DNA of 64,000 bases from Leeuwenhoekiella polynyae (lineage in GTDB: Bacteria > Bacteroidota > Bacteroidia > Flavobacteriales > Flavobacteriaceae). A program made the translations under genes and the position numbers. The first letter of the stretch is position 1, and every line of letters begins with the position of its first letter. The notes beneath the pieces are model-generated. The model saw nothing but the letters and a program-made list of their open reading frames with translations, ran no database searches and was not told the origin of the DNA. The stretch lies in the NCBI RefSeq assembly GCF_004104075.1, contig NZ_QOVK01000005.1, positions 62,001 through 126,000 on the forward strand, in the 5' to 3' direction. Below, piece by piece: positions 2,895 through 18,643 of this stretch.

Positions 2895-4169
2895 TTAGTC
2901 TTGAACAAATTTAAATCCGGCAGTGATGATGTTTGAACTGAGTCCGGTATTTCGTTTATAATTGTAGTATTTAAGATCAATGCTTTTAAGACCAAATTGT
3001 AGTAGATGGAAATTAGCAAAAATATCAGTATAGTTTATACCGAAACCAAACTGATTGGCATTATACTTAGACAGGTCATAATCTGATGTATAGAACGTAT
3101 CAGTAGAAAGGTGCGTTTCATAAGCCCCAAATTGATCTGCGGCTGTTTGCGTATAATAGCGGTAAGACGGATAAACAGTAAACTTATCGCCTAGTTTTAC
3201 AGGAATCTCAAGACTGGCGGTATGTGAGTTTATGCCCCAATCGTCTGTATAATACCGGTAATAGGAACGCAAAACTAGTGCAGCATTTATGTAATAATTT
3301 AACCTACCGCCTGCAGCAATTTTAAAGCGATTATTGGGTAAGCGTTCTACGTCATCAGCCAGTTGAAAATTATCAAAGAAGACATCTGGGCTGTCGCTAA
3401 AATAAACCCGTTGAAAAGGTGTAGATAATAAACCACTTTGCTGAACCAGATCTAGCGCTAGCGAACCTTGCACATTTTTAGATAGTATTTGAGAGAAACC
3501 AAAACCTAACGAATACGAGTTTCTGCCTTTATCATTAAATGGTGTAAAAGTGGGATTGTAGTTAGAATCGCCATAGGCAGCACCGGGTCTCAATTCGATA
3601 GGATAAATAGTAGTCCAGGTATCTAAATAAACATTAGCTCTTATGCTCAATTCGGTATTTTTTTCATTGAAGAGACGGGTATAGCTTCCACCAAAACCAA
3701 TAGAAAAATAGTCGTATTCTGAAGATACCGAAGCTTTTGCAGACCATATTTTGTTACGGTCATCTGAGTTGTGGGTGTAAGAACCCGTAAGATTAGCCCA
3801 GGTATCGCTGCGTGATGCTCCCGAAGATGCCTGATAAATATCAGCGCCATTACTTCCGTCAAAAGGATTGATGTTTGAAGAAGATGCAGATGTATATGCC
3901 GAAACCCCTGCATCTATGGTTAAAATAGCATCAGCATTTATAGGGATTGAGACCACAATAGTTCCTGTCGCATCAGTTAATTCTTCGGTTCCCAAACCAC
4001 CGCTAACCGCAGCATTATTACCTTGCTGCCCATAATAGCTACTCAATAGGTCAATTTCGGTAGTTTCTAAAACCCGTTTTTTATATGTGTTTTCAGATTG
4101 ATCTTGCTGTGCGAATGCTAATGTATTAATACAAAAGAATAGGGCTAAAATAGAGTAGTTTTTAAGCAT
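2895..4169 (-). CDS. DUF3570 outer-membrane beta-barrel-like protein
   Basis: The 424-residue product has a clear signal peptide ending near AFAQ21 and then repeated alternating beta strands with aromatic ends, as in an outer-membrane barrel, up to the final strand ending FKFVQD. It matches what I know of DUF3570, a Bacteroidota/Proteobacteria family of unknown function usually found beside DUF4266 and ApbE genes. It is the last gene of a four-gene operon: thioredoxin, ApbE, DUF4266, DUF3570, with only 11 bases between DUF4266 and this start. The segment D110...SSGAS119 faintly recalls the ApbE acceptor motif (D-x-x-S-G-A-T) but has Ser for Thr and a longer gap from Asp, so modification is speculative. 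Confidence 0.82.
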   Translation of the reverse strand: MLKNYSILALFFCINTLAFAQQDQSENTYKKRVLETTEIDLLSSYYGQQGNNAAVSGGLGTEELTDATGTIVVSIPINADAILTIDAGVSAYTSASSSNINPFDGSNGADIYQASSGASRSDTWANLTGSYTHNSDDRNKIWSAKASVSSEYDYFSIGFGGSYTRLFNEKNTELSIRANVYLDTWTTIYPIELRPGAAYGDSNYNPTFTPFNDKGRNSYSLGFGFSQILSKNVQGSLALDLVQQSGLLSTPFQRVYFSDSPDVFFDNFQLADDVERLPNNRFKIAAGGRLNYYINAALVLRSYYRYYTDDWGINSHTASLEIPVKLGDKFTVYPSYRYYTQTAADQFGAYETHLSTDTFYTSDYDLSKYNANQFGFGINYTDIFANFHLLQFGLKSIDLKYYNYKRNTGLSSNIITAGFKFVQD

Positions 4170-4180
4170 AGTTTTTTGAA

Positions 4181-4393
4181 TTAATTACAACCGCAACCTC
4201 CGCCGGTCTTACCTCCGTTAGCTCCTGCTGCCGCCTCACGATAAGAATGAAAAGTAGAAACATTGCGGTCTGCAGGTTTATCTGCTAGTGCCATATCAGG
4301 ATCATTAATGTTTACCTTCTCATATTCTTTAACAGCAACGCAACTGGTAAACATAAATGCCAAAACAACTACAAGACTTAGTTTTTTTATCAT
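4181..4393 (-). CDS. DUF4266 mini-lipoprotein with C-terminal GGGCGCN
   Basis: This 70-residue protein has a lipoprotein signal (MIKKLSLVVVLAFMFTSC) with C18 as the probable lipidated cysteine. The mature part is only about 52 residues, hydrophilic, glycine-rich at the end, and closes with GGG-C67-G-C69-N. The layout fits DUF4266. Its start codon overlaps the ApbE stop by four bases (ATGA), so translation is probably coupled. The C-terminal Cys-Gly-Cys could bind a metal, form a disulfide managed by the neighbouring thioredoxin, or carry a modification; none of these is shown by the sequence. No partner or activity is known to me. Confidence 0.85.
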   Translation of the reverse strand: MIKKLSLVVVLAFMFTSCVAVKEYEKVNINDPDMALADKPADRNVSTFHSYREAAAGANGGKTGGGCGCN

Positions 4394-5373
4394 GGTTTCT
4401 GAATTTCTATATGATCTGATTTATGAACGGTGCCATTCTCATCAATAATTATACATTCAATGTTAGGCAGTTGATTGATGCGATTGAGCCCAACTTCAAT
4501 CCCCATCACAAATACAGATGTCGCCAGAGCATCTGCCAGTTCTGCTTTTGAAGCAAAAACTGTTGCGCTAATGATTCCGGTAGCGGGGTATCCACTACGC
4601 GGATCTATAATGTGTGAATAACGGATGTTATTGAAAGTTACGTATTTTTCATAGTCTCCGGATGTTACAACGGCACTATTTATTACGGGCAATAATGCAA
4701 ACACCTTATTTTTATCTAGCGGGTTTGTAATGGCTACCTTCCACGGTTCGCCAGAAGTTTGCTTTCCCCAGGTATTCATATCACCAGATGCGTTTATAAT
4801 TCCTGAAGTGACACCATTTTGAATCAGTAATTCTTTAGCGCGATCAGCAGCATAACCTTTACCAATTGCACCAAAACCAATTTTCATTCCTTCTTTTTTA
4901 AGAAAGACAGTTTGTTCAACAGGATCTATAACTATATTTTCATAGCCTACTTTCGCTACAGATTGGGCAATTTTTTGCTCTGAAGGCATCATGGTCATAC
5001 TACCGTCAAACTTCCAGATTTTATCCATCGACGCGTAACTGATATCAAAAGCCCCATCAGTGAGTTTTGAAATCCCGAGTGACCGTTGTATGAGTTGTAT
5101 CAATTCTGGATCAACCTTAACCGGAATTTTTCCGGCATCGGCATTAATTTGAGAAGTTTGAGAATTGGGATCCCAGGATGAAATCAATTTTTCAATTCGT
5201 GTGATTTCGGCAACAGCCAAGTCTATATATGCGTCACCTTGAGTTTTATTTGCTGCAACTACCGTTATATCAAAACGACTACCCATCAGTTTGAGCGTGC
5301 GTTTATAAGTCTCTTGTGCACTTAAGATTTGACTGCATAAAAACAGTAAAATGGAAACCGTTGCAAATCGCAT
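4390..5373 (-). CDS. apbE: FAD:protein FMN transferase (ApbE family), exported
   Basis: ApbE enzymes use FAD to attach FMN covalently to a Thr or Ser of exported redox proteins. The 327-residue product has an N-terminal signal peptide (to about SAQ20) and the family landmarks: FDISYASMDKIW, GFGAIGKGYAADRA around residue 170, INASGDMNTWGK, SHIIDPRSGYP (about 255) and ADALATSVFVMG (about 290), the last carrying the Mg-binding region. It lies 4 bases after the thioredoxin gene and overlaps DUF4266. No NqrC, RnfG or other standard flavinylation target is encoded nearby, so its acceptor is either one of the two DUF proteins or encoded elsewhere. No lipobox is seen, so it should be periplasmic. Confidence 0.93.
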   Translation of the reverse strand: MRFATVSILLFLCSQILSAQETYKRTLKLMGSRFDITVVAANKTQGDAYIDLAVAEITRIEKLISSWDPNSQTSQINADAGKIPVKVDPELIQLIQRSLGISKLTDGAFDISYASMDKIWKFDGSMTMMPSEQKIAQSVAKVGYENIVIDPVEQTVFLKKEGMKIGFGAIGKGYAADRAKELLIQNGVTSGIINASGDMNTWGKQTSGEPWKVAITNPLDKNKVFALLPVINSAVVTSGDYEKYVTFNNIRYSHIIDPRSGYPATGIISATVFASKAELADALATSVFVMGIEVGLNRINQLPNIECIIIDENGTVHKSDHIEIQKP

Positions 5374-15215: not shown

Positions 15216-15824
15216 ATGTCATTTCAACTCCCGAAATTAAAATACGCGAAAGACGCACTAGAACCAAATATTGATGCTCAAACCATGGAAATTCACCATG
15301 ATAAGCATCACGCAGGTTATACCAGTAAATTAAATGCTGCTATTGAAGGAACAGATTTAGAAGGAAAGACTATTGAGAATATATTGATTAATCTTGATAT
15401 GTCTAACAAAGCTGTTCGTAACAATGGTGGAGGTTTTTACAATCACAGTTTGTTCTGGGAGGTCATGTCTCCTGACGGTGGTGGTGAGCCAACTGGTGAA
15501 TTAGCAGAAGCTATTAACGCTGCGTTTGGATCTTTTGACGCGTTTAAAGATAAATTTAGTAGTGCTGCAGGAACTCAGTTTGGTTCTGGATGGGCATGGT
15601 TATGTGTTCACGAAGGTGGAAAAGTAGAAGTTTGTTCTACTCCTAACCAAGATAATCCACTTATGCCGGAAGTAGGCTGTGGTGGAACTCCAATTTTAGG
15701 TATTGATGTATGGGAACATGCTTATTACTTAAAGTATCAGAACAAGCGTCCGGAATATATTGATGCATTTTTTAATGTAATCAACTGGCAAGAAGTTTCT
15801 AGCAGATATGCTCAGAACAAATAA
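15216..15824 (+). CDS. sodA: Superoxide dismutase, Fe/Mn type
   Basis: This 202-residue enzyme dismutes superoxide in the cytoplasm. The four metal ligands are visible: H27 (in [11 protein letters not shown]), H77 (FYNHSLFW), D164 and H168 (IDVWEHAYY). The protein has no signal peptide and normal family length. The [11 protein letters not shown] and GSGWAWL segments place it in the Fe/Mn family; residues such as [13 protein letters not shown] are more common in Mn-type enzymes, but the metal cannot be fixed by eye, so the symbol is tentative. The gene is monocistronic, with its own promoter and terminator. Confidence 0.95.
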
Positions 15825-15872: not shown

Positions 15873-16190
15873 ATGCCCTTTTTTTAAAAAAGCATATTTT
15901 TTAAATGAAAATTTATTGAATAGGTGTTTTGAAATCTAGGGATACTAGTTGATTTGAAGTTCTCAGAGAATTCATAACATTTAGATTATGGGAATTATTA
16001 GAAAAGGTAACTTCATTCCATATAAGGAAGGGTTGGAGAAGAATGTTTATTAGGATGCTTTTGATAGAACTGAAATAGTTTCTTGCCCAATAAAATACCG
16101 TGTTCTCTATAGTAACGTCCTCTTAAAGATTCTGAGCGAGCGTATTCAACAGTAATTAGCTTTTAAGTTCGAATTTATGCAAATAAAAAA
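15873..16190. other. Gene-free stretch before the repeat array
   Basis: About 320 bases without a supported gene. From ATG at 15988 a plus-strand frame runs to a stop at 16153-16155 with only one internal stop (16051-16053); its 55 codons show no domain I recognise. It may be a decayed short gene or chance. The rest is AT-rich and featureless. Confidence 0.4.
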
Positions 16191-16191
16191 A

Positions 16192-16306
16192 AGTGGAAAA
16201 AAGCGGAAGGCTGAAACGGCTCGCAGCAGCAGATATGTTTTTAATAGAAAATGAGTTTGTAATTGAGTCTATTTTGATATCAAGCACCGTGCATACTCGC
16301 CACCCC
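16192..16306. repeat. 136-base tandem repeat, unit A
   Basis: The unit begins AGTGGAAAAAAGCGGAAG, continues with CTGAAACGGCTCGC, and ends CTCGCCACCCC. The end segments can pair (GTGG with CCAC), which closes the unit as a long stem-loop on either strand. Compared with unit C (16465-16579) I find only three base differences over the unit and the following linker. The linker TTAAATTTTGGGCAAT leads directly into unit B. Confidence 0.85.
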
Positions 16307-16328
16307 TTAAATTTTGGGCAATAAAAAA

Positions 16329-16444
16329 GGTGGAATAAGTAGAAGGCTGAAACGGCTCGCGCTAATTTTTGTGGATTTGATTTAGCGTTGCTCTTAGATC
16401 GTAATTGCAGTTGATAGAAAAACGCAAAATAAGCTCGCCACCCC
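16329..16444. repeat. 136-base tandem repeat, unit B (different core)
   Basis: The unit keeps the ends of units A and C (GGTGGAATAAGTAGAAGG, CTGAAACGGCTCGC, and GCTCGCCACCCC) and the same total length (116 bases), but its central roughly 70 bases are unrelated to the A/C core. The core has its own inverted repeat, CGCTAA (16359-16364 region) with TTAGCG (about 16382-16387). It starts 137 bases after unit A and 136 before unit C. Confidence 0.8.
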
Positions 16445-16464
16445 AATTTGGTTCAAATAAAAAA

Positions 16465-16579
16465 GGTGGAAAAAAGCGGAAGACTGAAACGGCTCGCAGC
16501 AGCAGATATGTTTTTAATAGAAAATGAGTTTGTAATTAAGTCTATTTTGATATCAAGCACCGGGCATACTCGCCACCCC
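16465..16579. repeat. 136-base tandem repeat, unit C (near copy of A)
   Basis: The unit is nearly identical to unit A. Differences are GGAAGA against GGAAGG, ATTAAG against ATTGAG, and ACCGGGC against ACCGTGC. The linker after it begins a fourth copy (GGGCAATAAAAAAGGTGGAATA) that turns at once into the hairpin at 16589-16628. The array therefore reads A-B-A' and ends in a terminator built from the repeat's own start. Confidence 0.85.
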
Positions 16580-16588
16580 TTAAATTTT

Positions 16589-16628
16589 GGGCAATAAAAA
16601 AGGTGGAATAAATCCACCTTTTTTGCCC
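16589..16628. terminator. Bidirectional terminator between sod array and purF
   Basis: Perfect 12-base arms (AAAAAAGGTGGA at 16596-16607 and its complement at 16613-16624) with an ATAAA loop and T-runs on both strands; an outer GGGC/GCCC adds to the stem. It can end transcription from purF on the minus strand and from the array on the plus strand. Its left arm is the conserved beginning of the 136-base repeat. Confidence 0.9.
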
Positions 16629-16744
16629 CAAATCTACCATGAACTTAACCTACTTATGTTATGGCAGTCACTAAAGTATTATATGTTGTAGGATAGAACC
16701 AAATCTTTTAGATTAAGTGCTTAATTATTAGTTAAACAGTTGTT

Positions 16745-18643
16745 TTAATACGCTCTTTTCAAATTTCCCTCTACATAATTGATAAAAGCACGGTTTACGA
16801 CGCGATTTCCACCTGCGGTAGGGTAGTCACCTGTAAAGTACCAGTCCCCTAAGTTTTTAGGACATGCTTTGTGTAGATCAGCCACTTTTTGATAAATAAC
16901 ACTTACTTCTGGTTTAGTGGTTTCATCTTTAAGAAGTTCTGCAATTTTATCTGAAACTTCTTCGTCGGTAAATGGTTCGTAGATTTCTTTTACATAATTA
17001 ACAACTTCTGTATCTTCAAAATCTACCTGACTTAAACACTTTTGATAAACCTGATCTATGATGTCTTCTTTATTTTGCTCTTTTAAGAGGTCTATAGCCG
17101 CTCTAAATGCAATGAAGTCCTGAAGTTTAGCCATATCTATTCCGTAGCAGTCAGGATAGCGAATTTGCGGTGCAGAAGAAACAACAACAATCTTCTTAGG
17201 ATTTAATCGAGATAACATTTTTATGATACTTTTCTTAAGTGTTGTACCCCGTACGATACTATCATCTATTATCACCAAATTGTCAGATTCTTTTACAACA
17301 CCATAGGTAACGTCATAAACGTGAGCTACAAGATCATCTCTACTGCTGTCTTCGGTAATAAAGGTGCGTAGTTTTACATCTTTAATAGCTATCTTTTCAG
17401 TGCGTAATTTTTTTGAAAGAATCTCTTTAAGGCCTTCTTTGTCAAGTTCGTTTCTACGTTCTAAAATTTCATCTGCTTTTTGCTTATCTAGTTCTGCCTG
17501 TGCAGCTTCAACCATACCGTAAAAAGAAGTTTCGGCCGTATTAGGAATGTAACTGAAAACAGTGTTCTGCGTATCATGCTGAATATGCTTTAAAACTTCA
17601 GGCATTAATAAGCGCCCCAGTTCTTTACGCTCCTGATAAATTTCGGCATCGCTTCCTCTTGAGAAATAAATGCGCTCAAAAGAACATGCTTTGCGCTCTA
17701 AAGGTTCCTGAATTTTTTCGATTGAAGTTGCACCACTTTTTTTAATGATCATTGCGTGACCCGGGTCTAGCTCATGAACATCTTCAAAATTTGCATTAAA
17801 AACGGTTTGAATAACAGGGCGTTCGCTCGCAATAACTACAACCTCATCATCTTTATAATAATAAGCGGGTCTTATCCCTGAAGGGTCACGTAAAACAAAA
17901 GAATCTCCGTGACCTAATAAGCCGGCCATAGCATAACCGCCGTCCCAGTCTCTAGAAGCTTTCTTTAGGATTTTTGCAATGTTAAGACGTTCTGCAATTT
18001 GTGGAGAAGCTTCAAATTTAGAAAAGCCTTCCTTTTTTAATTTCTTATAAACCTTAGCAACTGCATCATCTAAAAAGTGACCTATTTTTTCCATCACCGT
18101 GATGGTATCTGCTTTTTCCTTGGGGTGCTGACCAAGCTCTACAAGCTTATCAAAAAGCTTAAACACGTTGGTCATGTTGAAGTTACCTGCAACAATAAGG
18201 TTACGGTGCATCCAGTTGTTTTGTCTTAAAAACGGGTGAACACTCTCAACACTATTTTTTCCAAATGTACCATAGCGCACGTGACCTAAGAGCAACTCAC
18301 CTATATAAGGCACGTATTTTTTTTGTAAAGCCACATCATCTGCATATTCCGGGTGCTCCAGTAAGGTCTGGTTGATACGAGAATTTATTTGTGCAAAAAT
18401 GTCTTGTATAGGTTGCTGCGCAATAGACCGTTGCCTACTTATGTAGCGCTCACCCGGAGCCATATCTAATTTAATACTGGCAAAACCTGCACCATCCTGA
18501 CCACGATTATGCTGCTTTTCCATCATTAAATACATTTTGTTTACACCATAAAATGCACTGCCGTATTTTTCTTTATAATACTCCAGAGGTTTCAAAAGGC
18601 GTATTACTGAAATTCCACATTCATGCTTAATTGCATCACTCAT
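16745..18643 (-). CDS. purF: Amidophosphoribosyltransferase (PurF)
   Basis: The enzyme catalyses the first committed step of purine synthesis, glutamine plus PRPP to phosphoribosylamine. The glutaminase nucleophile is C9 (HECGISVIRLL), which requires removal of the preceding eight residues, as in propeptide-bearing PurF types. The class II glutaminase domain follows with HNRGQDGAG and GHVRYGTFG; the PRPP loop is LVIIDDSIVRGTTLKKS at about residues 455-470. At 632 residues it is longer than the roughly 500-residue E. coli enzyme; the longer form is usual for Bacteroidota. purN lies 1.8 kb upstream on the same strand, so two purine genes sit in one cluster. Confidence 0.95.
   Translation of the reverse strand: MSDAIKHECGISVIRLLKPLEYYKEKYGSAFYGVNKMYLMMEKQHNRGQDGAGFASIKLDMAPGERYISRQRSIAQQPIQDIFAQINSRINQTLLEHPEYADDVALQKKYVPYIGELLLGHVRYGTFGKNSVESVHPFLRQNNWMHRNLIVAGNFNMTNVFKLFDKLVELGQHPKEKADTITVMEKIGHFLDDAVAKVYKKLKKEGFSKFEASPQIAERLNIAKILKKASRDWDGGYAMAGLLGHGDSFVLRDPSGIRPAYYYKDDEVVVIASERPVIQTVFNANFEDVHELDPGHAMIIKKSGATSIEKIQEPLERKACSFERIYFSRGSDAEIYQERKELGRLLMPEVLKHIQHDTQNTVFSYIPNTAETSFYGMVEAAQAELDKQKADEILERRNELDKEGLKEILSKKLRTEKIAIKDVKLRTFITEDSSRDDLVAHVYDVTYGVVKESDNLVIIDDSIVRGTTLKKSIIKMLSRLNPKKIVVVSSAPQIRYPDCYGIDMAKLQDFIAFRAAIDLLKEQNKEDIIDQVYQKCLSQVDFEDTEVVNYVKEIYEPFTDEEVSDKIAELLKDETTKPEVSVIYQKVADLHKACPKNLGDWYFTGDYPTAGGNRVVNRAFINYVEGNLKRAY

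Follow-up and report, generated by a model that had tools for sequence, protein, structure and literature searches.

A tandem array of covarying RNA modules follows a conserved small RNA gene between purF and sodA in Leeuwenhoekiella polynyae

The genome of Leeuwenhoekiella polynyae carries a conserved small RNA (sRNA) gene beside purF and, immediately downstream on the same strand, three tandem repeats that appear to be copies of one structured RNA module. The analysis covers a window of 64,000 nt (contig NZ_QOVK01000005.1, positions 62,001 to 126,000), and all coordinates given for the locus are those of this window. The organization of the locus and the structure of the repeat unit are firmly established. 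The array is most likely a multivalent binding-site RNA that would be produced by read-through of the sRNA terminator. The explanation in its entirety, namely an array of structured modules that turns over by recombination, is read through into RNA, and serves as a multivalent decoy, is held with confidence a little better than even.

In the open reading frames of the window, purF (16745..18643, minus strand) and a sodA-type superoxide dismutase gene (15216..15824, plus strand) converge tail to tail, and the repeats are located in the gap between them. purF is the upstream neighbor of the sRNA both here and in relatives, and the convergent dismutase gene is likewise conserved as a neighbor in the genus and in many relatives. 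A first-pass annotation, made from the DNA letters and open reading frames, had described three units on the minus strand downstream of purF; these are present, with 38-nt shared ends at 16187, 16323, and 16460 (spacing 136 and 137 nt), and they follow the sRNA. Unit C, nearest the sRNA (16486..16579, minus strand; parsed at 3564 of locus L007), consists of GGGGTGGCGAGT, a 70-nt core, and GCGAGCCGTTTC, with ends conserved in 152 units. The middle unit B (16349..16444, minus strand; L007 3699) consists of GGGGTGGCGAGC, a 72-nt core unrelated to that of unit A, and GCGAGCCGTTTC, and is recognized by the covariance model of the unit with an E value of 1.2e-4. Unit A, far from the sRNA (16213..16306, minus strand; L007 3837), again consists of GGGGTGGCGAGT, a 70-nt core, and GCGAGCCGTTTC. 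Units A and C form a 153-nt repeat that is 97% identical; their near-identity was recognized from the start, with the number of differing bases now corrected from three to 4 in 137 positions. On the minus strand, units B and C finish in CCACC-T6, as had been stated for every unit, but unit A at the far end finishes in CCAC-T8.

The repeats are specific to this locus. Their shared 3' end, CTCGCCACCCC, has three occurrences in the entire 4.8-Mb genome, every one of them in the array, and searches with unit A and with the shared ends found no second copy or donor elsewhere in the genome. Neither a gene in the array units nor an exact -7 promoter box inside the units of the window was detected. 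Neither over the sRNA nor over the units of the window did any Rfam 15 family reach its gathering cut-off, and the sRNA gene and the array module are both absent from Rfam. Our literature searches returned no description of the purF-sodA array locus. Elsewhere in the window, a fluoride riboswitch (RF01734) is present at 84-148 on the minus strand (58 bits).

The sRNA gene (GCCAUAACAUAAGUAGGUUAAGUUCAUGGUAGAUUUGGGGCAAAAAAGGUGGAUUUAUUCCACCUUUUUU) spans about 70 nt with putative ends at 16597..16666 on the minus strand. In an alignment of 73 copies, its 5' 45 nt are near-invariant, the 5' part being CCAUAACAUAAGUAGGUUAAGUUCAUGGUAGAUUUGGGGC, and its terminator stem varies between relatives with compensatory changes. 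The promoter contains the -7 box TACTTTAG (16671..16678, minus strand), which matches TAnnTTTG with one mismatch. TAnnTTTG is the -7 box of Bacteroidetes known from the literature on the phylum. The box is conserved in the sRNA copies of relatives: 111 of 114 have it 10-15 nt upstream, 75 of them in exact form. The terminator is the inverted repeat AAAAAAGGTGGA-TTTAT-TCCACCTTTTTT (16596..16624, minus strand), with perfect arms of 12 nt and a compensating stem in relatives. This hairpin had been read as a fourth unit cut short; the hairpin itself is real, but it is the intrinsic terminator of the minus-strand sRNA rather than a truncated unit. A further exact match, TAGATTTG, lies inside the conserved sRNA (16629-16636, minus strand) and fits the Bacteroidetes -7 box; a G insertion at the equivalent position in several genera breaks the spacing of this internal -7-like sequence.

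The sRNA was found only in the family Flavobacteriaceae, where most members have it. With up to 3 mismatches allowed, its 22-nt core was found in 313 of 400 genomes of the family (1-7 copies each). In an order-wide sample, the core was found in 24 Flavobacteriaceae genomes and outside the family in a single match with 3 mismatches, as would be expected by chance. The sRNA adjoins purF in about 100 fetched loci. In relatives that lack arrays, complete sRNA genes are often arranged in tandem about 200 nt apart, as at loci L056, L060, and L069 among others, and a genome may contain as many as 7 of them. Ahead of these tandem copies a GTTTAACTAAAATATTTT-like motif is found repeatedly, perhaps a regulator site. 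In much of the family the sRNA does without arrays, which are therefore dispensable for it. A search of the sRNA's own genome for mRNA targets through 18-nt complements gave no excess over a reversed-pattern control.

Some known RNAs resemble the sRNA or its arrangement. The tandem whole sRNA genes of array-less relatives are akin to the multicopy LhrC, csRNA, and Qrr genes; the array here differs from these in repeating another module that has no promoter of its own. 6S-Flavo RNA (RF01685) is also a flavobacterial small RNA, and identity of the sRNA with 6S RNA was ruled out, as the only 6S-Flavo match of the genome is on another contig (G000:C4:230763-230871) and none is found at the purF-sodA locus. 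Rfp18 and other Rfp sRNAs of Flavobacterium psychrophilum are likewise flavobacteria-conserved small RNAs with predicted structure; Rfp18 is described as having at least three stem-loops, and its description includes no array (PMC9723704).

On the minus strand, each unit reads GGGGUGGCGAGC, core, GCGAGCCGUUUC, a pyrimidine-rich tract, and usually a duplicate of the sRNA terminator's 3' arm. The two conserved blocks pair as the helix GGCGAGC/GCGAGCC. Among 71 distinct units, this helix and the first core pairs show change on both sides at 8 of 8 pairs. The number of double-change cells is 53, compared to 25.3 ± 3.8 in shuffled alignments, with none of 500 shuffles reaching the observed value, and the signal vanishes when the pairing is slid. 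While the selection of loci by pattern biases the sample towards the consensus, the covariation counts are made up of deviations from that consensus. Compensatory change at all eight counted pairs indicates that the unit is a structured RNA. Within the helix, two G.A appositions that form a tandem G.A step are kept in 98-99% of units, and the helix is accompanied by other conserved residues, namely a 5' GGGGU, a 3' GUUUC, and the pyrimidine tract. The first-pass annotation had likened the repeats to a family of structured, variable-loop RNAs, and its fixed ends, changeable insides, compensatory changes, and copies in relatives are all observed. The pairing that it had proposed between GGTGG and CCACC exists in the window but is not conserved: it depends on the terminator sequence of this genus and is not kept in other genera.

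Other pairings and the opposite strand were also considered. Pairing of GGGGU with GUUUC was rejected, as 94.6% of cases are nominally paired but mainly through G.U, and compensatory change is nearly absent. The other candidate partner of GGGGU, the pyrimidine tract, scores 0.59 versus 0.50 in shuffles, which is inside the shuffle range. An RNA from the plus strand was also rejected: C.U mismatches would replace the minus-strand G.A appositions, and the sRNA and its promoter are on the minus strand as well. In three short-core units (L092 991-1034 and 169-212; L117 6453-6496), the C-G pair usual beside the G.A step gives way to two consecutive appositions, G with A and then A with G, suggestive of an additional tandem G.A step.

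The conserved ends might instead act in DNA, as a single-stranded hairpin or a protein site, for example as a barrier to transcription or replication between convergent genes. The covariation is equally compatible with single-stranded DNA, in which tandem G.A steps are also stable, and the position between convergent genes would suit such an element. However, in every case read the units are on the sRNA strand directly behind the sRNA, an arrangement that a DNA element does not require, and we regard this alternative as very unlikely.

In contrast to the ends, the cores vary freely in sequence and share no common motif. The core of unit B, described at first pass as unrelated to those of its neighbors, has a best identity of 0.56 to any core of the genus, compared to a shuffled 95th percentile of 0.57. 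More generally, mean core similarity is 0.67 within genomes and 0.46 between genomes of the genus, the latter against 0.45 for shuffled cores. Cores fall into length classes of about 6-11, 31-40, and 64-75 nt. The shortest form small stems with 4-nt loops, and only these show paired stems in the alignment; long cores contain no structure beyond chance (z near 0). At L018 (genome G008), three copies of Flavo-1 RNA (RF01705), a flavobacterial structured element, lie within array units (3843-3921, 4102-4180, and 4361-4438), from which it follows that cores are open to invasion by another repeat and subsequent amplification. In relatives, these Flavo-1 insertions at L018 are the only matches to pass an Rfam cut-off; weaker ones occur near the arrays of L012-L014, and the units of the window do not match Flavo-1.

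Fixed ends around unrelated insides, which differ even between species with 98% identical PurF, might suggest a cassette system in which a recombinase exchanges cores, one of the possibilities raised in the first-pass annotation. Integron cassette arrays likewise have variable insides between fixed ends in tandem order. The array nevertheless departs from integrons in having no integrase nearby, no gene in its units, and a single fixed locus: unit A occurs at this locus only in the genome, while the insides of a cassette array would be expected at other places as well. Furthermore, cores are alike within most genomes, and arrays are found at one kind of place, beside the sRNA, with purF and sodA rather than a recombinase as neighbors. 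A cassette system is therefore highly improbable; the cores are variable loops. Their likeness within genomes and shuffled-level similarity between genomes instead imply turnover with homogenization.

The copies of the terminator 3' arm that end the units lie at 16446..16473 for unit C (TTCCACCTTTTTTATTTGAACCAAATT region), 16310..16337 for unit B (TTCCACCTTTTTTATTGCCCAAAATT region), and 16172..16198 for unit A (with its CCAC-T8), all on the minus strand. Other genera have GUUUACC, GUUUGCC, or GCUAGCC as the arm, in keeping with the local sRNA, while GGGGUGGCGAGC stays constant. Arms score 6.03 of 7 against the sRNA just upstream, compared to 5.43 for permuted sRNAs, and are mostly closer to the local sRNA than to the other sRNA of the same locus. 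This match might reflect a self-sponge, in which arms antisense to the GAUUUGGGGCAAAA-GGUGG segment would titrate the sRNA. Such an antisense sponge is the main functional rival of a decoy role. However, the arms are less conserved than the G.A residues: a match of at least 6.5 of 7 is seen in 44% of units, CAAAT is kept in 41%, and a T5 run in 71%. Tandem duplication with gene conversion would also account for the match without selection, and we consider the sponge unlikely.

The arms were also weighed as sites of termination. The suggestion that each unit is an independent terminated RNA is not borne out: in most genera a unit holds the 3' arm without the 5' arm needed for a terminator of its own, so that the array is not a series of intrinsic terminators each with its own hairpin and T run, and the window's units contain no exact -7 box. 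Alternatively, the sRNA terminator's only 5' arm could pair with its own or later 3' arms, producing the sRNA plus a variable number of modules. A 3' arm copy does close each unit, often with a T run, and the array of the window ends in one. Against this, the first hairpin would fold before the later arms exist, these arms are 80-700 nt away, and some arrays drop arms yet keep their modules. Alternative termination thus seems quite unlikely.

The array is not restricted to L. polynyae. purF is present in 13 of 13 genomes of the genus, and the intergenic sequences read contain the sRNA followed by units whose ends are shared and whose cores differ from species to species, decayed in a few cases. 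The units of Leeuwenhoekiella blandensis (L113) and L. parthenopeia (L121) are the same as those in genus genomes G011 and G004. A scan of named genomes for the sRNA with an array start yielded 48 records, including Aequorivita, Ulvibacter, Altibacter, Dokdonia, Marixanthomonas, Marinirhabdus, and Aureitalea. On the PurF tree, arrays fall into two groups (Dokdonia with Leeuwenhoekiella, and the Aequorivita/Altibacter/Ulvibacter side), requiring three changes. The exact module pattern was too strict, matching 5 of 400 family genomes, and a covariance model was used instead. This model detected units in 13 of 201 genomes, a lower bound as it was trained on cores of up to 40 nt and misses most long-core units; it found up to 13 copies in one genome, beside the sRNA wherever the position of the sRNA was known. 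In this largest case, the 13 units form two arrays (G114:C1:1083720-1084415 and 1087668-1088258), in some units of which the terminator arm is replaced and the module intact. Arrays contain 1-8 units, with a single unit in some genera.

These comparisons bear on whether the repeats have a function at all. They could be functionless local duplications that expand and contract neutrally: a site between convergent genes tolerates insertions, the cores diverge freely, and an Aequorivita-group genome (L059) has almost lost its array. However, two clades have retained the same 24 nucleotides at the ends even though their cores are no more similar than shuffled sequence, and the paired positions covary. 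Covariation therefore disfavors neutral repeats, which we rate as decidedly unlikely. Likewise, a chance duplication would be expected to have no copies elsewhere and no compensatory changes, and neither holds; the repeats are genuine.

The preferred reading, in which the array is a multivalent binding site, can be set out as follows. The tandem G.A helix would close each module and expose the core as a loop free in sequence. As each unit ends in an arm copy, modules are bounded by direct repeats, which allows unequal recombination; such recombination probably multiplies and homogenizes the units. If the array is transcribed, it is most likely read through from the sRNA promoter, since it contains no exact promoter box and no gene. 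Read-through would add to the sRNA a 3' extension bearing several like binding sites, and these could, in the manner of CsrB-type RNAs, serve as a multivalent decoy of an RNA-binding protein or a partner of the sRNA. A decoy or scaffold role is favored because a short compensating motif, variable copy number, and free loops are expected of a multivalent binding site. We nonetheless regard the decoy role as tentative. Among the points against it, a genus with a single unit has no multivalent decoy, an efficient sRNA terminator would mean little transcription of the array, and the sRNA does without arrays in many relatives.

The closest analogues in mode of working are the decoys CsrB, CsrC, RsmY, and RsmZ, of the type that sequesters CsrA or RsmA protein. 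Like these RNAs, the array repeats a short structured motif in one RNA, with key residues fixed, loops free, and copy number variable, and its tandem units with a covarying helix correspond to their repeated hairpins with a conserved motif. The GGA that CsrB and RsmZ carry in hairpin loops has no counterpart, as the cores hold no common motif; the conserved part is instead the helix base with its tandem G.A step, and the array follows the terminator of another sRNA. The array may thus be comparable to CsrB-type RNAs in its working, but is not a member of the family.

In a field where RNA regulation is poorly known, namely that of Bacteroidota, this work adds two RNA elements that Rfam lacks. 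One is an sRNA whose 5' part is almost unchanged across most Flavobacteriaceae; the other is a covarying module that occurs exclusively downstream of this sRNA. It is possible, though less likely than not, that the expandable tandem-G.A array, which the family-wide sRNA carries in two clades, works as a multivalent decoy that titrates either an RNA-binding protein or the sRNA, with a strength set by copy number through recombination between terminator arms. The compensating motif, free loops, and variable copy number point to a putative binding partner that can be fished for directly. In addition, the repeats offer a clear natural example of an RNA array evolving in concert.
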